Assembly: GCF_004348825.1 (NCBI RefSeq)
Contig: NZ_SMJU01000005.1
Coordinates: forward strand, 1-64,000
From: Arundinibacter roseus
Lineage (GTDB): Bacteria; Bacteroidota; Bacteroidia; Cytophagales; Spirosomataceae
Direction: 5' to 3'
Length of the DNA: 64,000 nt
Positions 7,469-19,237 of this stretch are shown in pieces. The translations under genes were made by a program, and so were the position numbers. The first letter of the stretch is position 1; the number at the start of each line of letters is the position of its first letter. The notes below the pieces were generated by a model. That model was not told the DNA's origin. It did not search any database and worked only from the letters and a program-made list of their open reading frames with translations.

Positions 7469-8648
7469 AGGTTATAAAAGTTTTTATTCAAGAGGGGCAA
7501 TCTACTAATTTTTTGGATGGCATTAGACCTTTAAACGCTTTTTTTTCTCTTCATTTTCAGGCCCTAAGCCAAATGAACGTTTCAACTTTCATCAGAAGTA
7601 CGTAAGTTAAAGTGCTGCCGGCGGGCTACTTCTGCTGAATCTTTCAAAATTCATTCAAAAATTCTTTGGCTTTCAGGGTTATCTGCCACTATTTCCACCT
7701 TCATTAGTAGTATTGTCAAAAAGGTTATATATAGACCATGCATCTGTCCATTTCCTGTATTCAGGCCACCGTTTGCCACCCCTGCTTTACCCCTCTCACC
7801 CTTCAATTCAATACTGATTTGGTTTGGCTTGCTTTCGGGTTTATATACGCCACCCAAATATATTTGGATGTATAGCAGATGAAAATATATTTCCCCCACC
7901 TGGGCAACGATCACCCCAAATGCCTGGTGTCTCTTTTTGAGCCGTTCACTTTTTCTGTGCTTCAATAAAAGCTTGCTTTATAAAAAGTTGTTTGACGTCT
8001 CTATGCCCTAATATAGTACGAACCACAAGCGGCGATAGATCGACAGACTTTTACGATTTTAGAAAAAAAAGTCTGCAAAACTCTTCTGGCAGGCCTGGCG
8101 CTTCATCCTGTTCATAAATCTACCAAAACGGCTACCTTACTATCTCCCCAACTTGCGGAAAATCTTTCTCAGGCGCATTAAATCTTGAATTTTAGATTAT
8201 TTTTTGTAACTGATTTAAAGTTAATAATTTTGGTTTTTTATTACTATACGTTATTTTAATTTGTAACTTTTTGTACAACAACACAAGCTTAAATTTTACA
8301 ATCTTTTTAAAGAATCACGCACCAATACCGTTCAAATTAATTATTTTTCATTCTTTTTATTGTACTATTTTTAGTTAACTCAATTTCATTATACAATAAA
8401 TACTATTCATTGGATTAAAAATTGAGATTTTCCCTGAACACATCCCTAGGTAGCTCATGAACCGTTAAAAAATTTTTATAACTTTTTATTGCTATCCATA
8501 AATTCATTCTTCATCTTTGAATCAGATTTATGTGTAACCAAAAACTACCATAATATTCTTCCCCTCTTGGCATATCGTTTTTTAAGTAGTTTCACTAACT
8601 ATTAGTAACCAAAACTGTATCCTATTCCAAACATTTACACGACCATCC
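7469..8648. other. AT-rich intergenic region, 1.2 kb
   Basis: No convincing gene. A 104-codon minus-strand frame (7651-7965) starts at TTG and shows no family. From about 8180 to 8640 the DNA is strongly AT-rich and probably holds the promoter of the large secreted protein. One inverted repeat is visible: CAGACTTTT at 8044-8052 pairs with AAAAGTCTG at 8067-8075. I cannot assign a function to it. Confidence 0.6.
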
Positions 8649-11600
8649 ATGAGAAGTTTTCTACTGAATCCTTACCGGGAAACGTACGGCCTGTGGCTCC
8701 GTCTGACCTGCCTGATTATCCTTTTATCGCCTGGCCTGGCGCTGGCTCAAAATGGTTCTCTATGTTACAAACCCCTGATCGGTCCCGGCACAAGTGCGGG
8801 CCCGGTAGGTGGTAGTTTGACTGACGTCGGCTTTACTCCAAACAATACACCTGCTAACCTGATCGACGGGAATACGGGCAACTTTGCCGAAATTTCCAAC
8901 CTGCTCACACTGGCTTCCGGACGGGGCGTAACCGTCAGCAATGCCAATACCACCTACCCCGCCGGATGGTTTGCGGGGTACGTGGTGGAGCTGGGCGACA
9001 ATGGATTGCTCAATGCCAATGTGCTTTCAGGCATTGAAGTTCAGACATTTAATGATGGCGCACCCGCTGAAACCCGCACGTTTAATAGTGGTTTGGGAGT
9101 TACTTTACTTTCGGACGGCTCGCCGGATAAAGTGTATCTTAGCTTTGAAACTACACTGCCTTTTGACGAAGTCAGGCTGGTAAAAAATAGCCTGGTAAAC
9201 CTGGCAGCCGGTACTTCACTCCGCGTATACTACGCCACGGCCTTTGATCCCGGCTGCGGCACGCTGGATCAAAATGGGATTTGCTACGACCAAATCGCCG
9301 GAAATGAAACGGTTGTCAATTTTGGAGCAGGCTTGCTCGGTACGCTTGCTACCCTGAGCAATCCGGATGGCATCACCGACGGAGATAAAAACACCTACGC
9401 AACTCTGGTCCTTCCGGCAGGTACCAACCTGCTGGCCTCGGCGCCATTTGTAGGAGTAAAAAGCCTGCAAACGATTTATCCGTCCGGCAATCGGGTAGGT
9501 TTTGTGGTGCAGCAGGATAACGGCCTACTCACCGCTGACCTGCTCAATACCCTCCGCATCCAAACGTATCTGCACGGAGAATTGCAGGATGATCAGCCGC
9601 TGAGCAGCGGAAATGGCCTGTTGGCCGCAAACGTACTGGCCGGCACAGATCCGATTCAGGAATTGTCAATTCTGACTACCGCACCCTTCAACGAAGTGAG
9701 ACTCGTGGCCGAGGGAGTTATGGCTAGTTTGGGTACCCTGCGCATTTATTATGCCTTTGAAAACCCCGAAAGCTGTACCGATTGCAAAACGGCCCTTACT
9801 TCCAGCGCAGCACAACCCTACACCGGAGAGCTTGTCAGTCGTGACCGTGACCCCAGTATTTTCAGCACATACAATACTACGGGTGTATACGGCTTAACGT
9901 TAGGGACATTAACTAACACCTCTGCTCTGGTTAGCCCAAGTCTGACGGATTCTGCACGGTTTGCTGTTATAGCGGGTTTGCTCAATGGTGGCGCACGCAT
10001 GACTGTTAAGCGAACAGGAGGAGATAATTACCCGGTAGGCACCGTGGCTGGCTTTGCGGTTAAAAGCGGTAGCGGACTGCTCAGCGCGGGGTTGCTCAGT
10101 GGCATTACCATCCGGCTCTATGAGGGCGATGGTGAAAATCCGGTACAGACAATCACCGGTGCCTCGCTGCTCAACCTCGGTTTACTGAGTTCCAATGGTC
10201 TTAATTTTATTGGGGGAAAATCAACTGTGGCCTTTGATGAAATTGAAATAGACCTGAACCTTGGGGCGATTTCGCTGGGACTGCCGCTTACGTTTGATGT
10301 TTTTTATGCCTATGTCCAAATCGATACCGACGGCGATGGAGTACCCGACTGCAACGAAATTTGCGGGGCCGGACAAGACGACTCCGTGGATTCCGACGGC
10401 GACGGCACACCCGATGCCTGTGATGCATGCAGCGATGCCAATGACAAATCGGCGGTGGTTGATACCGACGGCGATGGCTTACTGAATAACTGCGACCCGG
10501 ACAGCGATAACGACGGAATACCCGATTCCGTAGAAGACACCAATGGGAATGGTGATCCTAATGATGATGACGCCGACGGAGATGGGGTGCCCAACTACCT
10601 TGACCTCGACAGCGACAATGACGGAATTCTGGATTTGTACGAATCAGGAATTGATCCGGCACTGATTGCCTCAAATGATGCGGACGAAAATGGAGTACTT
10701 GATACCGCCAATCCGATTTTTACCAATACCCCCCGCGATACTGATGGGGATGGAGTGCCGGATTATCTGGATCTGGATAGTGACAACGACGGAATCCCGG
10801 ATCTGACAGAAAGTGGCCTGACAGGCTTTGCTGATGCTGATAATAACGGGGTGGTCGATGGACCTGACGCTGATAATGACGGAGTGCAGGATAGTGTAGA
10901 TGGCGATGACGCCGCCTTTGGATCACCCAATACCGGTGCTCCACGCGACACCGACGGAGACAATGTGCCCGATGCCTACGACCTGGATAGTGACAATGAC
11001 GGAATCAACGATATTATTGAAAGCGGAATTCCTGGCCTTATCGACGCCAATAACGACGGAATTGTGGATGGACCCGATGCTGATGGCGACGGTATCAGCG
11101 ACAGCGCCGATACCGATGACGAAACCTTCGGCTCACCGGGCGCTCCGGCTCCGATAAATTCTGACAATGACGACGCTCCTGACTACATTGACCTGGATAG
11201 CGACAATGATACCCGCAGCGACCTCGTGGAAAGTGGTCAGACGGGCTATGTGGATGCGGATGATAACGGGGTGGTAGACGGACCGGATTCGGATGGTGAC
11301 GGAATTATGGATAGTGTCGATGGCAATAATGGCACCTTCGGCGATGCCGGAGATACGGCGCCACAAAACACCGATGGTACCGACGAGCCTGATTATCGTG
11401 ATACCGATAGCAACAACGACGGCACCAACGACATTGAAGATAACGGTCGTGGCGACCTTGACCCCGATGATGATGGCATGGTGGACAATCCTGTCGACCC
11501 CGACAACGATGGCATTCCGAATAACAACGGCCTGGACTTCCAGCCTGATGACTTTGGTGGTTTGGGTACAGGTAGTCCTGATCTTTCGCCGGGTGTACTT

Positions 11601-12011
11601 TCCAATGGCTCTACCTACAATGTGTCCGACGAACGTGATGTGGTGGTGACGATTTTTAACACCGGAGAAACAGGCACAAGCGCACCGGTTGTCTTTACGA
11701 TCACGAAACTCGAACCAACCTTCGGAATTGCCATTCCAGAAACGGCAACCAACGCTGATGTGTTTGGCGGAACCGCCGTTGATAACTCCCAATGGACCAT
11801 AACCGAAGAGGCCACACGCTATGTATTTACATTGAAGGATGGGTTCTCAATTTTACCAACCGAAAATAAAAAGGTCGTGCTACGCCTAACCGCCACCGGC
11901 ACCAACTCATCCAATGCCAACCTGACCGTGCGGATCATTGACGGCACCGGTGGTTCTGAAAATCCAATCACCAATAATATCCTGATTTACAAACTGAGCA
12001 TAAACTTATAA
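8649..12011 (+). CDS. Large secreted protein with thrombospondin type-3 calcium-binding repeats
   Basis: 1120 residues with a signal peptide (1-33, ending ALAQ). About residues 35-560 hold three copies of a ~165-residue beta-rich module, recognisable by WFAGYVVELGDNGLL, VGFVVQQDNGLL and VAGFAVKSGSGLL, and by FDEVRLV, FNEVRLV and FDEIEID. From about 557 to 980 there is a long run of thrombospondin type-3 repeats (DTDGDGVPD, DLDSDNDGIPD), which bind calcium. Part of this run is organised as exact 210-bp units (see the repeat entry). The last ~130 residues form a beta domain that does not show a clear type IX sorting signature. A surface or extracellular structural/adhesive role is likely. It is followed after 14 bp by a T9SS cargo gene on the same strand and probably shares its transcript. 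Confidence 0.85.
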   Translation: MRSFLLNPYRETYGLWLRLTCLIILLSPGLALAQNGSLCYKPLIGPGTSAGPVGGSLTDVGFTPNNTPANLIDGNTGNFAEISNLLTLASGRGVTVSNANTTYPAGWFAGYVVELGDNGLLNANVLSGIEVQTFNDGAPAETRTFNSGLGVTLLSDGSPDKVYLSFETTLPFDEVRLVKNSLVNLAAGTSLRVYYATAFDPGCGTLDQNGICYDQIAGNETVVNFGAGLLGTLATLSNPDGITDGDKNTYATLVLPAGTNLLASAPFVGVKSLQTIYPSGNRVGFVVQQDNGLLTADLLNTLRIQTYLHGELQDDQPLSSGNGLLAANVLAGTDPIQELSILTTAPFNEVRLVAEGVMASLGTLRIYYAFENPESCTDCKTALTSSAAQPYTGELVSRDRDPSIFSTYNTTGVYGLTLGTLTNTSALVSPSLTDSARFAVIAGLLNGGARMTVKRTGGDNYPVGTVAGFAVKSGSGLLSAGLLSGITIRLYEGDGENPVQTITGASLLNLGLLSSNGLNFIGGKSTVAFDEIEIDLNLGAISLGLPLTFDVFYAYVQIDTDGDGVPDCNEICGAGQDDSVDSDGDGTPDACDACSDANDKSAVVDTDGDGLLNNCDPDSDNDGIPDSVEDTNGNGDPNDDDADGDGVPNYLDLDSDNDGILDLYESGIDPALIASNDADENGVLDTANPIFTNTPRDTDGDGVPDYLDLDSDNDGIPDLTESGLTGFADADNNGVVDGPDADNDGVQDSVDGDDAAFGSPNTGAPRDTDGDNVPDAYDLDSDNDGINDIIESGIPGLIDANNDGIVDGPDADGDGISDSADTDDETFGSPGAPAPINSDNDDAPDYIDLDSDNDTRSDLVESGQTGYVDADDNGVVDGPDSDGDGIMDSVDGNNGTFGDAGDTAPQNTDGTDEPDYRDTDSNNDGTNDIEDNGRGDLDPDDDGMVDNPVDPDNDGIPNNNGLDFQPDDFGGLGTGSPDLSPGVLSNGSTYNVSDERDVVVTIFNTGETGTSAPVVFTITKLEPTFGIAIPETATNADVFGGTAVDNSQWTITEEATRYVFTLKDGFSILPTENKKVVLRLTATGTNSSNANLTVRIIDGTGGSENPITNNILIYKLSINL
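10731..11360 (+). repeat. Three 210-bp tandem coding repeats (70 residues each)
   Basis: Units begin at 10731, 10941 and 11151, exactly 210 bp apart, and a divergent fourth begins at 11361. Each encodes D-x-D-G-x-x-x-P-D-Y, LDSDNDG, ESG, then DADNNGVVDGPD and FG. They sit within the thrombospondin type-3 region and have diverged in codon use, so the duplication is not recent. Copy number could vary between strains. Confidence 0.8.
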
Positions 12012-12025
12012 CTACATCGATCACT

Positions 12026-13057
12026 ATGAAAAAAGTACTTTTGAACTTCTGTTCACTGGCCCTGTTCCTGAGCCTTACGCTGCAAGTCTACGCCATTGAC
12101 CCTGCCATATCGGCGCTAAGTGTTGCGCCAAACCCGATTCAGCAATATGATGTCGGAACCATCGTAGCCAACTTCAACGTGGGGGGAAGCGGCTCCATCC
12201 CGATTGGCAGCGTGGGTGTTCAGATTTCTTTTCCCAATTCCTACCTCCCCGATCCGCAGTCTATTGCGGCGGTTCGGGCCACAGGTGCCGGAAGCTTCTT
12301 TAACTGGATTTATGATAGTGGCGCACGAACGCTGACGGGTATCAGCAATCAGGTATTTGTGGATGGTGACGGCGGGCTCATTACCATCGACCTGCGAGGC
12401 TACGTAGTGACTGATCCTAGTTTCGACAATTCCGTAGCAAACCTGATTTATCCCAACGGGGCTTTAATTGGCAATGAAGTAGGCAATGACAACCTGCTGG
12501 CCGGAGGCCGCGTGGTGGTCAATCCAAGCCCGGTTTCGCTGCTGAGTTTCACGGCTCAGAAAGAAGCACAAACGGCGGTTTTGAGCTGGGGAACAGCGGA
12601 GGAAATCAATAGCGATCGCTTCGAAATTGAGCACAGCCTTACCGGAAAACAGTGGCAAAAAATTGGCGCAGTAGCCGCACAGGGCAACAGCCGACAAACC
12701 AACTGGTATTCGTTTGTGGACGACAACCCGGCCAATGGCACCAACCTCTATCGACTTCGGATGATTGATAAAGACGGCAGCAACGAAGTAACCCGCGCGC
12801 GAAGTCTGGATTTTGAGATTCTGGTCGAGACGACTCTGTATCCAAACCCGGTAGTTGAAAAGCTATTAATCAAGGCCGATGACCTTTCCAAAATCAGGCG
12901 GGTGGAGCTCTACAACGCCACGGGTCGAACGGTGTTTGTGTCCGAAACCATCAGTGCGCAGGGAATTGACGTAAAAAATCTGCCCAATGGATTTTATGTC
13001 GTGCGGGTAACGCGAACGAACGGCAGCAGCGATTCATTCAAGGTGCTGAAACAGTAA
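12026..13057 (+). CDS. T9SS type A sorting-domain protein
   Basis: 343 residues: a signal peptide (1-23), and an N-terminal beta-sandwich (about 24-165) with repeated aliphatic strands. Then comes a typical Bacteroidetes fibronectin-like linker (VSLLSFTAQKE, AVLSWGTAEEINSDRFEIE, YRLRMIDKDG), and a type IX C-terminal sorting domain (from about 268, TLYPNPVVEKLLIK, then GFYVVRV, ending SFKVLKQ). The protein should be exported by Sec, then by the type IX system, and anchored to or released from the surface. No enzyme domain is recognisable. It follows the thrombospondin-repeat gene by 14 bp and precedes the lasso-type precursor by 49 bp with no terminator visible between them, so read-through into the peptide gene is possible. 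Confidence 0.88.
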   Translation: MKKVLLNFCSLALFLSLTLQVYAIDPAISALSVAPNPIQQYDVGTIVANFNVGGSGSIPIGSVGVQISFPNSYLPDPQSIAAVRATGAGSFFNWIYDSGARTLTGISNQVFVDGDGGLITIDLRGYVVTDPSFDNSVANLIYPNGALIGNEVGNDNLLAGGRVVVNPSPVSLLSFTAQKEAQTAVLSWGTAEEINSDRFEIEHSLTGKQWQKIGAVAAQGNSRQTNWYSFVDDNPANGTNLYRLRMIDKDGSNEVTRARSLDFEILVETTLYPNPVVEKLLIKADDLSKIRRVELYNATGRTVFVSETISAQGIDVKNLPNGFYVVRVTRTNGSSDSFKVLKQ

Positions 13058-13106
13058 AGAAACATCCTCGTTTTTTCAGTCAATTTATCTAAAAAAAGAA
13101 ACACGT

Positions 13107-13262
13107 ATGAACGCATATACCACAAACACTCCGGTTGCATTTGCCCTGAAAAATAGCAAAAAGAGCTACCACAAACCATCTCTGGTACACCGCGGCACGG
13201 TGGCACGGCTCACCTTAAAAGCGGGATCCAGTACGGATGCATTTACAAATTTCACACCGTAA
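13107..13262 (+). CDS. Putative lasso peptide precursor (51 residues)
   Basis: This short frame encodes a 51-residue peptide. Residues 21-36 (YHKPSLVHRGTVARLT) match the lasso leader signature Y-x2-P-x-L-x3-G-x5-T at every fixed position (Y21, P24, L26, G30, T36). In known precursors this Thr is the second-last leader residue. That puts the cleavage after L37 and gives a 14-residue core, KAGSSTDAFTNFTP, with D44 (core position 7) as the ring acceptor. Cleavage after T36 would give an 8-residue ring with the same Asp. A Lys or Leu at core position 1 instead of Gly is unusual. A strong hairpin and a lasso-cyclase-like gene follow directly. The leader match plus the neighbour make this a real gene in my view. 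The mature product and its maturation are inferred. Confidence 0.75.
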   Translation: MNAYTTNTPVAFALKNSKKSYHKPSLVHRGTVARLTLKAGSSTDAFTNFTP

Positions 13263-13287
13263 TGCCCTGATAGTATACTAATAATTT

Positions 13288-13320
13288 AATCAGCCCGCCA
13301 GAATTGGCGGGCTGATTTTA
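13288..13320 (+). terminator. Strong hairpin between precursor and cyclase genes
   Basis: A perfect 13-bp GC-rich stem (AATCAGCCCGCCA at 13288-13300 with TGGCGGGCTGATT at 13305-13317) and a 4-nt loop, followed by TTA. It lies 25 bp after the peptide stop and 48 bp before the cyclase start. It probably acts as a partial terminator or 3'-stabilising structure that keeps peptide transcript above enzyme transcript, as in other RiPP clusters (inference). Confidence 0.8.
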
Positions 13321-13367
13321 GTCATTTTCCGGTAGTCGGCTCCTTCCGTTTAACACCCATTTTCGCC

Positions 13368-15311
13368 ATGGCAATTCCTTATTTTTCGGGCATTTTTTAT
13401 TTTGATCCGGCACAGGCACCCTCGTCTTTCCGCCCCATACCCGATAGCCAAACGCAGGTGGTAGAATTCCTAAACGGATACGTAGCCACCAATGTCCTCC
13501 AATCGCTGCACATTTCGTCCAATCTGATTGTGCTGGCCGATTGCCGTTTTCATGAACGTCCCAAACTCGTGCAAAAAGTTATGGGCGGAGCCATGGCTTT
13601 GTCCGACGCCGAGCTCGTAAGCCACGCTTATGTGCAATGGGGAGACAAGCTTTCAGAGCACTTTACAGGAGAATTTACTTTTATTATTTGGGAAAAAGAT
13701 TCTGGGAAAATCCTTGTTTCGCGCGATCGTTTCGGCTTTAAAACCTTCTTTTATGAGCACAAACCCGGCGCTTATTTTGCCTTTGGCAACCGCATCAGCA
13801 GGCTGCCCACCTTCGTAAAGTCCAGAAATCCTGACTATGTAAAAATCCGTGAGTACCTCCTTCCCGAACGCTCGTACCGCAGCTACGAGGATCGGACTTT
13901 TTATGCGCATATCAAAGCGGCATTGCCTGCCCATACATTCCAAATCCTCCGAACCGATTTTCAGCAGCATTGCTACTGGCGCATCAATCCTGCACAGTAT
14001 AGCGGCATCAGGCACGAAGAAGAGTACATTGAGCTTTTCAAAACCTATTTTTACAACTCCATCCGAAACTGCACGCAGGGCTACACCAACATCGGCACGC
14101 ACCTGAGCGGCGGCATTGATTCGTCCTCGGTAGCCTGCGTGGCACATGAGGTGGCCGGTCCGCTGTCCACTTTTTACATCAATCCTGACCTGCCTTCTAC
14201 CGACGAAAGTTTTTATGTAAAAGCTGTGCAGCAAAAAATCAACTCGCGGCATTTTGCAGCACAACCACAGGATACCATCTACGAATCCTTACGTACATTA
14301 AGTCGTCTGTTTGATCGCCCCGAACAGTTTCCGCTGCCGTCAAGTTTTCAGTTTGCGGCGGCGCACCAAATCCAACAGGCACAGTGTGACGTGGTGCTGA
14401 CCGGTCATGACGGCGACTCGGTGATTGGTCACGGCAATCAGCTCATTGGAAACTACCTCGCTGCGGGCGATTGGCCTCTGCTCAGGCAGGCGCTTGATTT
14501 GTATGCGCAGGAACGCGACCTGAGCTACCTCGCGCCCAATTGGCTGACGCTACCTGCCAATAAACGGCAGCAAACGTACATGCAGCATTTTCTCACCACG
14601 GAGCTTTGGAAGCTCGTTCGACAAAAAGAATTTGGTCATTTCCTGCGTTCCGGACGGGCTTTTCATACCCAAATGGGCTACTCGTACGGACAATTTTTAG
14701 CTTCTTTTCTTGAAAAAATTTCTTCAAGATTCAGTTTTGAAACAGCGCATTTGCTTACTCCTGATTTCTTGAATCACTCGAATGCGTCCGAATCGACCCA
14801 AACGGCTAAGGCACTATACACCAACCTTTCCTCCGACTATACCCATCAGTTTCAGGCCATTACCAACAAGTCGTACATTGATGCCACCGAGCAGCTTCAC
14901 CACATTGGTTTGCACTTTGGGCACCGCTATGCGCATCCGTATTTCGACGAACAGCTCATTGAACTTTCGCTGGCGATTCCTGAAAAATTAAAATTCGGAG
15001 ACGGCAAAGGGCGGGAAACCATTCGCCGGGCGCTGAAAGGAATTTTGCCGGAAGAAGTTCGAACCCGTGGCCATAAAACCAGTTTCAGCGAATACGGCCT
15101 GCTCAGTCTGCGCATGCTTTATTTCCAGACCACCGAGCTGTTTGGCAGACAGCATGTTTTGTGGGAATTTATTGATAAAATAAAATTTGATGCCTGCGTA
15201 AAGTTCCTGTTGAATGACAAAATTCCTTTGAACCAAAAATCGGGAACTTATGGGCTGGTTTCCAGAGCGTTATTCCTGGGAGTTTGGCTGCATGATCTTT
15301 CCGAACCATGA
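13368..15311 (+). CDS. Asparagine-synthetase-like lasso peptide cyclase (C protein)
   Basis: 647 residues in two parts. The N-terminal half (1-200) is a class II glutaminase-like domain, but it starts MAIPYFSGIF and lacks the Cys2 nucleophile of true AsnB, so it cannot use glutamine in the normal way. The C-terminal half is an AsnB-type synthetase domain with the PP-loop SGGIDSSS (247-254), the GHDGDSVIGHG loop (346-356) and a late basic motif VRTRGHKTSF. These proteins adenylate an Asp or Glu side chain and form the isopeptide ring of lasso peptides. It directly follows a peptide gene with the lasso leader signature, which supports the cyclase role over asparagine synthesis. Its stop overlaps the next gene by 4 bp. 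No leader peptidase (B2) or RRE (B1) gene is adjacent. An amidotransferase-family enzyme with another peptide substrate remains possible. Confidence 0.82.
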   Translation: MAIPYFSGIFYFDPAQAPSSFRPIPDSQTQVVEFLNGYVATNVLQSLHISSNLIVLADCRFHERPKLVQKVMGGAMALSDAELVSHAYVQWGDKLSEHFTGEFTFIIWEKDSGKILVSRDRFGFKTFFYEHKPGAYFAFGNRISRLPTFVKSRNPDYVKIREYLLPERSYRSYEDRTFYAHIKAALPAHTFQILRTDFQQHCYWRINPAQYSGIRHEEEYIELFKTYFYNSIRNCTQGYTNIGTHLSGGIDSSSVACVAHEVAGPLSTFYINPDLPSTDESFYVKAVQQKINSRHFAAQPQDTIYESLRTLSRLFDRPEQFPLPSSFQFAAAHQIQQAQCDVVLTGHDGDSVIGHGNQLIGNYLAAGDWPLLRQALDLYAQERDLSYLAPNWLTLPANKRQQTYMQHFLTTELWKLVRQKEFGHFLRSGRAFHTQMGYSYGQFLASFLEKISSRFSFETAHLLTPDFLNHSNASESTQTAKALYTNLSSDYTHQFQAITNKSYIDATEQLHHIGLHFGHRYAHPYFDEQLIELSLAIPEKLKFGDGKGRETIRRALKGILPEEVRTRGHKTSFSEYGLLSLRMLYFQTTELFGRQHVLWEFIDKIKFDACVKFLLNDKIPLNQKSGTYGLVSRALFLGVWLHDLSEP

Positions 15312-15991: not shown

Positions 15992-18900
15992 CTACCGCAT
16001 CACGAGCCTTCCCGTAAATACCTGTTCATTGACCGTCATTTTATAAATATATACACCCGGCGGCTGCGAATTTGTCCAGAAAATCTCCTGTATACCTGCC
16101 TGTACCTCCACCAATTCTTTATGCAAAAGCTGCCCGTTCAGGCTAAAAATAGTTAATAAAACGTCCGCTACATCCATTGGCTGATTCACCACAAACCGAG
16201 CATATATACTTGTCGGATTTGGACTTACCTCTACACTGACAGACAGATTTTCACGTTCAACTACCTGCCAGCGAACCTGATACGGTTGTCCGGCCCGGTT
16301 TCCGGCTACATCGCGGCCCTGCACCAAAAGTGTGTAAAAACCCGGCGCCAGTTCAGGCTGATAGCTTACCAACAGGCTTTTGTCGGCGCCAACCGAAAGC
16401 CTCAGTTGCTCGCTCTCCACGGCCCGAAAAGCACAGGAATCGCAGCTACGCAGAAAAAACTCAATCAGGCCTGGTTCCGCAGGCAGCGGATTTTGGTCCC
16501 ACAGTTGCGCCTGTATCAACGGATTGCCCGAGATCAAGCTGTTGTTTTCAATCATTCGTCCATTCACCGTCACGGTCAAAAGCGGGTTCAGGAGGTCGGG
16601 CAAAGCTGACAACGGGTACACAGTTAGGTCAGCCACCTCTGCCCACGGAAGCAATAGCGTAGCAGCATTGTTGGTTTCCAGGGTTTCGTCAATCAGGTTT
16701 GCGTCATCCACCAGAACCTCGATTTTCGTCAGTATTTTATCATTTTTAACCCCAAAAAAAAGCGTATCCCGAAACAGCGGGGCAGAAATCTCATGATTCA
16801 TGGGCCAAATCTGCCCTGCATCATCCGTTAGCCGGATCAGGACCGACAGTTTTTGTCCGGCCACGGCCTTGCCCGCATTCCCGATCACAAGCCCGACCTG
16901 TACCGAATCTCCTTTTCCGATAGACTGCGTTGGGGAGGAACTTTGTAAAAAAACGCCTGATGATTGAATCGTAAAATCGGGTTTATCGAGCTGAAAAAGC
17001 ACCACCGCCGGATCACCCAACAGGATGAGCTGATGCACGTTGGCTACATCATAAGGCGTAGGATTATTCGCTAAAATCTCGTCACCGACTTTCTGTAAAA
17101 CTTCCCCGATTGGTTTTCCGAGCCACGGTTCTTCGGCAAACAGTGTTTTGTACAGCGCCGCCAGGTAGCGGGCCGAAGTGGGCGCATAGCTCCAATAGGA
17201 ATTTGAAAGCACACCAATCGCTCCTTTGTTGGCGGCCAAAAGCCAATCGGTTGCCAACGTTTCGTAGCGATAAAATACATTGCCCACGCCGCAGCCGTTG
17301 AAGTACATGAACGGATATTTCCCCGCATTGCTCAGCTGTGAACCTGCCGAAGTGGCAAAGCCGATGTTGAGGTCGGGAACTGTTGGTGAGGCATGCCCCA
17401 TAAAAGTCACAAGCCCAACGCCGGCATTGATCTGCGGTGCAATGTTTACGTTTTCGACCGGTTCGGCAGACTGTTTAACAATCGATTCCACCGGACCGCG
17501 CAGAAAAGCTTTTTCGGCTAATGGCGAAATGTCCGAAAGGATTTTTTGTAAATCAGCAATTTCGTAGGACGATTTTCCGCCGCTAAGGTGCAACACCCGT
17601 TTGGAAAAAGTGCGATCCTGATTGCTTTCAAATTCCTTCACTTTGTCCAGGTAAGCCAACACTTCCTCGGGAGTTCCGGCATTAATACGCCCCGTGCGGT
17701 ACGTGGGGTGATCGGCAGCCTGCCCCGCAAGTCCCGCGGACAGCAGCAGGTCCGAGCCAGGATAGCCAAAGGTTGGCACAAAATCGCGGTCTTGCCAGCT
17801 TTTGAGCACATCCGGAAAACTTACGCCCTTTCCAATCAACAGCAGGTACGCTTCTTTTGGACGGGCGTTGAGCTGAAAATCCAGGAAATTACGAATCGCC
17901 AACGGCCCTCTTTCTCCATAGTTAAACGGATCGTAGAGTTCCTGCACATCAGCAACCAATACGTTAAAACCTCCTCCGGCAGCCGAACGGCGGTAGTTTG
18001 CGTAGGTTTCTGCCGACTCCCGTAGTACTTTATGAGTTAAAATCAGGTAGTTGTAGTCGGTTTCAAATTCTTTAAATTCAATTTTGCGTAGATCTTTCGG
18101 AGCAAGAAATTGGGTAGTAACAAAAATTTTGCGGCTTTCCGATGCCTCTGAAACAGTGGTTTCCCAGCGCGAAGCAATCAGCCGGCTTTCCAGCAAACGC
18201 GGCTCGTACCGATTGGTAACATCGTACATCGCCGGAGTTTTTTCGAGTCCTTCTACCGCAAGTTTTACCAAACCACCGGCTTTGGGCGTCAGATAAAAAT
18301 ACCGCGATGCCAGCCCATTCATCGTGGTTTTTTGTGGGTAAATAACCTCATAACTCGACAGTGAATACAACTCCAAAGCAGCAGTGGAAGCGGACTGCAC
18401 CGAAAAATTAATTTCATCATTCGTCAGACTTTCCTCTGCCGGAAGCACAGTTTCGACCATTCGATGCGCAAAACCGGAAAAATCCAGCGAGGCAAATTTT
18501 CTTTTTCCCGAAAAAAACGAAAGTGGATGTGCAGTATCAAATCGCCCGTTAACCAACAGCCGAAGCCGAACCGGAAAGTCAGCATGACGCACCGGATGCA
18601 CCAGTTTGTAGCGCCACGAAGCCAGCGAATCGCCCTGAATCAGCTTGCCCGTCCAGCCTTCGCCCGCTTCGTAGTAGCTCTGCTGCAGGTAAGGTACAAG
18701 CCCGTTGGAATTGTTGAACGACCACTCGTCGCGGAAAGTCGTGAGGGCGTGTTCGAGATGAAAAGGTTCAGGAGAAAGGCTGTTGGCCAGGTAGGTACCT
18801 TGCGGCATTCGTTTGCCTTTTTTATCGGGATTAACGGTCAGAAAGAACACACAATCGTCGCTGTACAAACTCGTAATTCCCGGTGGCCGGGCGTGGTGAG

Positions 18901-19237
18901 GCCGATACACCAGGCTGTCTTGCTCGCCGGTATTTCCGGCTGAAAAAAATTCAATAAATCCATCCGGCCCCAACTGCCCATCGGCCGATTTTTCTACCCG
19001 AATTGCCAGCTCTTTGCCCCGATAAAAAAGCTGTAAATGATCCGCAGGAGCAGCTTCGGGGAGTCCGGCGCGAAAAAGCTCAGATCCTGAGAGGCGGTAC
19101 ACTCCGGCCTGTTGGGTGGTAATTTTTAGGTATAGCTGCGCCGGATTTATCCAACTTGAAGCCTTCGGCGCTTGCCCGCAGGTTTTCCCCAAAGTGAAAA
19201 AACAAATTCCTATCCACACAAGTAGCGCTTTCCCCAT
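15992..19237 (-). CDS. C25-family cysteine peptidase, PorU/PorU2-like type IX sortase
   Basis: 1081 residues. A signal peptide (1-22, ending TCGQA) is followed by an N-terminal beta domain typical of PorU, and then the gingipain-like C25 catalytic domain. This has YLLLIGKGVSFPDV, GRINAGTPEEV, the catalytic His in TFMGHASP (H615) and the catalytic Cys in FNGCGVGN (C649). The C-terminus (from about residue 990, VSPNPTSIYARF, then VYIYKMTV) is a type IX sorting domain, so the enzyme is itself a cargo of the system. PorU cuts off the sorting domain of cargo proteins at the outer membrane and attaches them to lipopolysaccharide. At 1081 residues it is close to, but shorter than, P. gingivalis PorU, and PorU2 paralogues also exist in this order. 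Which of the two this is I cannot decide. Confidence 0.85.
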   Translation of the reverse strand: MGKALLVWIGICFFTLGKTCGQAPKASSWINPAQLYLKITTQQAGVYRLSGSELFRAGLPEAAPADHLQLFYRGKELAIRVEKSADGQLGPDGFIEFFSAGNTGEQDSLVYRPHHARPPGITSLYSDDCVFFLTVNPDKKGKRMPQGTYLANSLSPEPFHLEHALTTFRDEWSFNNSNGLVPYLQQSYYEAGEGWTGKLIQGDSLASWRYKLVHPVRHADFPVRLRLLVNGRFDTAHPLSFFSGKRKFASLDFSGFAHRMVETVLPAEESLTNDEINFSVQSASTAALELYSLSSYEVIYPQKTTMNGLASRYFYLTPKAGGLVKLAVEGLEKTPAMYDVTNRYEPRLLESRLIASRWETTVSEASESRKIFVTTQFLAPKDLRKIEFKEFETDYNYLILTHKVLRESAETYANYRRSAAGGGFNVLVADVQELYDPFNYGERGPLAIRNFLDFQLNARPKEAYLLLIGKGVSFPDVLKSWQDRDFVPTFGYPGSDLLLSAGLAGQAADHPTYRTGRINAGTPEEVLAYLDKVKEFESNQDRTFSKRVLHLSGGKSSYEIADLQKILSDISPLAEKAFLRGPVESIVKQSAEPVENVNIAPQINAGVGLVTFMGHASPTVPDLNIGFATSAGSQLSNAGKYPFMYFNGCGVGNVFYRYETLATDWLLAANKGAIGVLSNSYWSYAPTSARYLAALYKTLFAEEPWLGKPIGEVLQKVGDEILANNPTPYDVANVHQLILLGDPAVVLFQLDKPDFTIQSSGVFLQSSSPTQSIGKGDSVQVGLVIGNAGKAVAGQKLSVLIRLTDDAGQIWPMNHEISAPLFRDTLFFGVKNDKILTKIEVLVDDANLIDETLETNNAATLLLPWAEVADLTVYPLSALPDLLNPLLTVTVNGRMIENNSLISGNPLIQAQLWDQNPLPAEPGLIEFFLRSCDSCAFRAVESEQLRLSVGADKSLLVSYQPELAPGFYTLLVQGRDVAGNRAGQPYQVRWQVVERENLSVSVEVSPNPTSIYARFVVNQPMDVADVLLTIFSLNGQLLHKELVEVQAGIQEIFWTNSQPPGVYIYKMTVNEQVFTGRLVMR

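Follow-up and report, generated by a model that had tools for sequence, protein, structure and literature searches.

A lasso-type precursor and cyclase beside T9SS genes in Arundinibacter roseus, with leader-processing genes on another contig

Results

Gene content of the locus

The window, i.e., the whole stretch of 64,000 nucleotides of Arundinibacter roseus DNA that was analysed, carries a small lasso-type precursor gene and a cyclase gene among genes for surface proteins. The features are as follows.

8649..12011, + strand: secreted protein of ~1120 aa with Asp-rich repeats (TSP3-like by eye), first of a conserved surface-protein pair
12026..13057, + strand: T9SS cargo, 343 aa, with type A sorting domain (TIGR04183, E 1.2e-12; PF18962)
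13107..13262, + strand: lasso precursor gene A, 51 aa, leader MNAYTTNTPVAFALKNSKKSYHKPSLVHRGTVARLTL, core KAGSSTDAFTNFTP
13218..13259, + strand: predicted core K1-P14; K1, G3, S4 and D7 are conserved in the T9SS-linked group
13288..13317, + strand: terminator-like hairpin between precursor and cyclase, 13 bp stem and 4-nt loop, then a short T-rich stretch
13368..15311, + strand: lasso cyclase C, asparagine-synthetase-like, without glutaminase Cys2, 647 aa
15308..15991, + strand: cassette lipoprotein, 227 aa, its start overlapping the cyclase stop by 4 bp
15992..19237, - strand: PorU2-type sortase/gingipain-like C25 protease, 1081 aa, with T9SS sorting tail (NF052324, PF01364)

Precursor, leader and core

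An earlier note on this DNA had read a lasso leader signature in the 51-codon gene, and all of its residues (Y21, P24, L26, G30 and T36) were found. They occupy positions Y(-17), P(-14), L(-12) and T(-2), which is the published lasso register with YxxPxL at -17 to -12 and Thr at -2 (PMC10368454). Counted from Y21, this register puts the first core residue exactly at K38, and the note's claim of a core that starts with Lys and has D7 as its only acidic residue agrees with it. D7, which is D44 of the ORF, is the predicted ring acceptor and lies within positions 7-9 stated for lasso peptides (PMC10368454); the macrolactam would join the K1 alpha-amine to the D7 side chain. Across 24 aligned precursors Y, P, G and T are invariant. 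With the NCBIfam leader model NF033521 the ORF scores 14.6 bits, below the cut-off of 19 which at least two relatives pass, and it is therefore plausible that the gene is unannotated, as the note had it.

In three other genera an orthologous precursor adjoins an orthologous cyclase. The leader signature is present there and the K-x-G-S-x-x-D core is kept, including the Asp for which the note had proposed a comparison: the core reads KGGSQTDAF... in genome G003 as well as in Persicitalea jodogahamensis (G016), and KTGSQSDAF... in Rhabdobacter roseus (G023). The orthologues show pS of 0.61-0.99 versus pN of 0.17-0.34 (34 aligned codons), i.e., purifying selection, and since pS is far above pN we take the frame to be a selected gene. 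A chance or decayed frame, which the score below the curated leader cut-off might suggest, is contradicted by these values and also by the conservation, the hairpin and the same position in other genera. We rejected it as having a negligible probability. At E 1e-6 or better, the precursor profile matched 4 of 295 genomes of the class, three of them in the Spirosomataceae.

Cyclase

The cyclase matches Asn_synthase (PF00733, E 3e-29). As previously claimed, it has the synthetase PP-loop (SGGIDSSS) and lacks Cys2, residue 2 being Ala. Its best NCBIfam model is the lasso cyclase NF033535 (260 bits, E 3e-77), followed at a distance by asparagine synthase (149 bits). Both scores are below the respective cut-offs, that of NF033535 being 525 bits, a curated detection threshold rather than a biochemical feature; the same model was matched by all 12 cyclases scanned. 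In a tree of 75 rows the window cyclase falls into a group of 59 rows together with cyanobacterial lasso cyclases (SH-aLRT 100), while 16 AsnB-like controls, which have a Cys near the N-terminus, form a separate side (SH-aLRT 100). The cyclase tree, which the earlier note had named as a check, thus sides with a lasso cyclase, and we reject a true AsnB, given the missing Cys2 and the position apart from all 16 controls.

A single-sequence search of the genome contigs with the window cyclase gave no match, but an alignment-based search did find cyclases. The PDB sequence search returned no lasso cyclase structure by name; the matches were asparagine synthetase, beta-lactam synthetase, CarA, a hydroxyamidotransferase and weak ones.

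Leader-processing genes

No B1 or B2 gene was found near the precursor and cyclase. The genome encodes six Asn_synthase genes and only two pairs of PqqD and Transglut_core3 genes, at about 48.5 kb of contig C6 and 60 kb of contig C4. At the C6 locus we find B1 (PqqD/RRE), B2, a 358-aa protein without Pfam match, an HPrK-like kinase and an NTP_transf_5 gene, yet neither a cyclase nor a precursor. B2 at this locus keeps its Cys and His motifs, and the kinase has the H, G, G, GKS and DD motif reported for lasso kinases. An RRE protein and a leader peptidase are thus available in the genome. The self-contained cluster in the window was rejected, as genes A and C are located here and B1/B2 on another contig. 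Of the 'lasso peptide cluster' announced in the earlier note, the lasso peptide stands on its leader, core and cyclase; the cluster does not, given the distant processing genes and the T9SS-related neighbours. An arrangement of A, B and C in one cluster is usual but does not define lasso chemistry.

Among 200 genomes of the family, B2 is present in 78 of 80 with the cyclase versus 20 of 120 without. It lies within 15 kb of the cyclase in none of 33 Dyadobacter genomes versus 18 of 26 Spirosoma genomes; all these counts are per genome and uncorrected for relatedness, and as linkage or its absence runs along genus lines, individual genomes cannot be taken as independent events. The separation of A/C from B1/B2 is fixed in the sampled Dyadobacter. 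The same kinds of B1/B2 genes occur within the cassette in Rhabdobacter (L049) and at several Spirosoma loci, and most of the cyanobacterial loci sampled are linked, mostly as B1-B2-C-A in one run.

The B1/B2 pair on contig C4 is located ~9 kb from a divergent cyclase. This stretch (51-62 kb; L042 6111-16845) is a separate RiPP-like region, which also comprises an HPrK-like protein, a methyltransferase and an MBOAT gene; no precursor was recognised in it.

T9SS cargo, hairpin and orphan precursors

The repeat protein at 8649..12011 has no Pfam match; its homologues are found at the same place in four other loci (L047, L048, L049 and L108). The T9SS cargo ends 50 bp before the precursor, and in orthologous loci, too, a T9SS cargo lies directly upstream. 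The hairpin downstream of the precursor has a folding energy of -24.7 kcal/mol (z -7.2). It was not listed by the terminator scan, its T tract being short, and the promoter and terminator scan overall performed no better than chance. By eye, similar hairpins are seen 3' of several other T9SS-linked precursors, though not after the two Dyadobacter ones inspected. From spacing and hairpin we infer that the precursor is the last gene of the T9SS-cargo transcript.

The precursor profile search also found precursors without adjacent cyclase. Five such orphans in the same genome (C18:21.7k, C43:161k and three sites on C33) have different leaders and an identical core, KIGSTSDVGGMQPMP, which is encoded via 4-12 synonymous changes per 54 nt; each of the five adjoins a T9SS-CTD ORF. 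Seven of the nine precursors of this genome are located at most 60 bp from a T9SS-CTD ORF on the same strand, for which 1.7% of the genome would qualify; as the C33 copies are probably duplicates, the binomial value for this adjacency overstates the case. That precursors of the Spirosomataceae are scattered beside surface-protein genes, with their processing enzymes encoded elsewhere in the genome, suggests a surface role and not an ordinary antibiotic cluster. On contig C33, units of precursor and T9SS cargo are found at both ends (L237, L238), which suggests a repeat array left open in the assembly.

Lipoprotein and PorU2

The lipoprotein accompanies the cyclase and PorU2 across the Spirosomataceae, with an invariant lipobox Cys18 and invariant C200/C205. 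Its structure model (pLDDT 90) shows weak fold matches to LolA/YmcC-like and other lipoproteins with a top TM <0.4, and the PDB sequence search gave no match. PorU2 is identified by NF052324 (872 bits, cut-off 450) and PF01364 (E 1e-66), and H615/C649 is a candidate dyad by motif. Both genes also occur in two further cassettes (L043, L045) and at many Spirosoma and Dyadobacter loci; PorU2 is present in at least 145 of the 200 genomes and hence not exclusive to lasso loci. The L045 cassette (C40:353k; 8279-14028) comprises cyclase, lipoprotein and PorU2 without a recognisable adjoining precursor. In one Dyadobacter locus (L095 10425-12251), and at similar positions in others, the cassette adjoins a gene for a PorZ-like T9SS component (PF21544).

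Lys in the core and gene context

Among 53 precursors, compiled and labelled by context by hand, a Lys immediately or one residue before GS is found in all 37 T9SS/PorU2-linked precursors, in 6 of 9 others and in none of the 7 curli- or YcaO-linked ones. K1 occurs together with D7 in 27 of the 37.

At three loci (L044 7468-11581, located at C33:345-350k of this genome; L106; L249) a lasso-type precursor ending in Cys is followed by a YcaO-domain protein (PF02624 in L044) and a lasso-type cyclase, possibly a hybrid of azoline and lasso chemistry. Six further loci (L046, L235, L128, L250, L251 and L050) carry other lasso-type precursors and cyclases in or beside runs of curlin-like repeat genes (by eye); the cores of these precursors are without the Lys.

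Discussion

Proposed function

We favour, with a probability of roughly two in three, a dispersed lasso-peptide system that serves the cell surface and of which the window is one outpost. For the precursor and cyclase, lasso-type chemistry is well supported: gene content, leader register and the cyclase tree all point to it. We presume that B1/B2 act in trans, and likewise presume phosphorylation, threading, export, a role of PorU2 and the surface function of the peptide. Transcribed as the final gene of the T9SS-cargo operon, as spacing and hairpin suggest, the precursor would have its leader bound by B1 and cut after Thr-Leu by B2, both presumably supplied from the other contig. The adjacent cyclase would then activate D7 and join it to the K1 amine; by comparison with the family, the product would be a macrolactam of seven residues that carries a tail of equal length. 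Ser4, which is conserved, is a possible phosphorylation site for the kinase; in relatives, the modified residue is Ser3 or a C-terminal Ser. Outside the cell the product would act in concert with proteins of its own cassette, namely T9SS cargo, lipoprotein and PorU2 sortase, and the gene association and the kept Lys point to a surface ligand or tether, probably not a freely secreted antibiotic. Xanthomonins likewise have a 7-residue ring, but with Gly1 and Glu7 instead of Lys1 and Asp7; as the Asp ring is tighter than their Glu ring, threading is uncertain.

Comparison with known systems

The closest likeness is to the bsf cluster of Bradymonas and paeninodin-type class II lasso peptides, which share with our system the YxxPxL at -17 to -12 and a recognition residue at -2, as well as separate RRE and leader peptidase, cyclase, HPrK-like kinase and nucleotidyltransferase genes (PMC10368454). 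There, however, all genes form one cluster with an ABC transporter, whereas here A and C are dispersed and B1, B2, kinase and nucleotidyltransferase lie at another locus; the core starts with Lys instead of Gly, and T9SS genes stand in place of the exporter. Cyanobacterial lasso peptides (NF033528, lasso_cyano, a model matched by 23 of 24 sampled precursors at E up to 1) have cyclases within the clade of the window cyclase, but their loci are mostly single runs, and T9SS is a system of Bacteroidota. In P. gingivalis, PorU joins the cargo by an amide to a seryl-bearing sugar on LPS (PMC13086638). That system shares with ours a PorU-type sortase, here PorU2, and cargo with a type A sorting tail, but no lasso peptide is involved in its anchoring. 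Literature searches for PorU2, for lasso peptides with sortases and Bacteroidota, and for lasso peptides with T9SS, curli or these genera gave no paper on a link between lasso peptides and T9SS within the collection searched, an absence that is no proof of novelty.

By analogy, the lasso might be a covalent handle: PorU2 would trim the sorting tail of the co-transcribed cargo and attach the C-terminus thus exposed to the invariant Lys via its side-chain amine. We regard this as a long shot; if true, each cargo would be tethered via its own lasso, as opposed to the seryl sugar in P. gingivalis.

Alternative explanations

An ordinary lasso peptide, antimicrobial or signalling, whose cluster was broken by rearrangement would equally leave B1/B2 to act in trans, with the T9SS neighbours as bystanders or as an export or immunity context. 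A linked ancestor is likely, because in most cyanobacterial and Spirosoma relatives A, B1, B2 and C are still neighbours. T9SS genes, moreover, abound in these genomes (40 matches). Yet the T9SS adjacency recurs at separate loci in several genera, usually on the same strand, it is retained by orphan precursors without cyclase, and the Lys follows the T9SS/PorU2 context. Such a broken cluster is therefore unlikely, albeit to be reckoned with. Somewhat less probable again is that the cyclase product is an unthreaded 7-residue head-to-side-chain macrolactam and no lasso. A 7-residue Asp ring is indeed very small, and the core tails are short and variable; against this, leader, B1, B2 and C each belong to the lasso type, and ring position 7 is within the range stated for lasso peptides (PMC10368454).

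The conserved Lys might instead be a cleavage site, after which PorU2 or another gingipain-like C25 protease cuts at the cell surface; with the ring thus opened, the peptide would be set free or lose its activity. C25 gingipains are Arg/Lys-specific, and C25 genes adjoin many K-containing precursors and none of the examined curli- or YcaO-linked ones. Some K-containing precursors, however, have no adjacent C25 gene, and PorU acts on the C-termini of T9SS cargo (PMC13086638), and we rate such cleavage as improbable.

Implications and further observations

The proposed dispersed system is hard to find by lasso genome mining, which usually seeks A, B and C side by side. Its precursors have at most a cyclase as biosynthetic neighbour and its processing enzymes are encoded at a distance, so that it would be missed or mis-scored. 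If the link to T9SS is functional, lasso peptides would take part in the construction of the bacterial surface.

Neither in the vicinity of the window nor next to B1/B2 did we recognise a dedicated ABC exporter. On contig C18 (16-19.7 kb; L234 3962-7692), a 798-aa C39-peptidase ABC exporter-like protein and a 425-aa HlyD-like protein (both by eye) are encoded ~2 kb from an orphan precursor, from which a recombinase gene separates them, and represent a candidate exporter.
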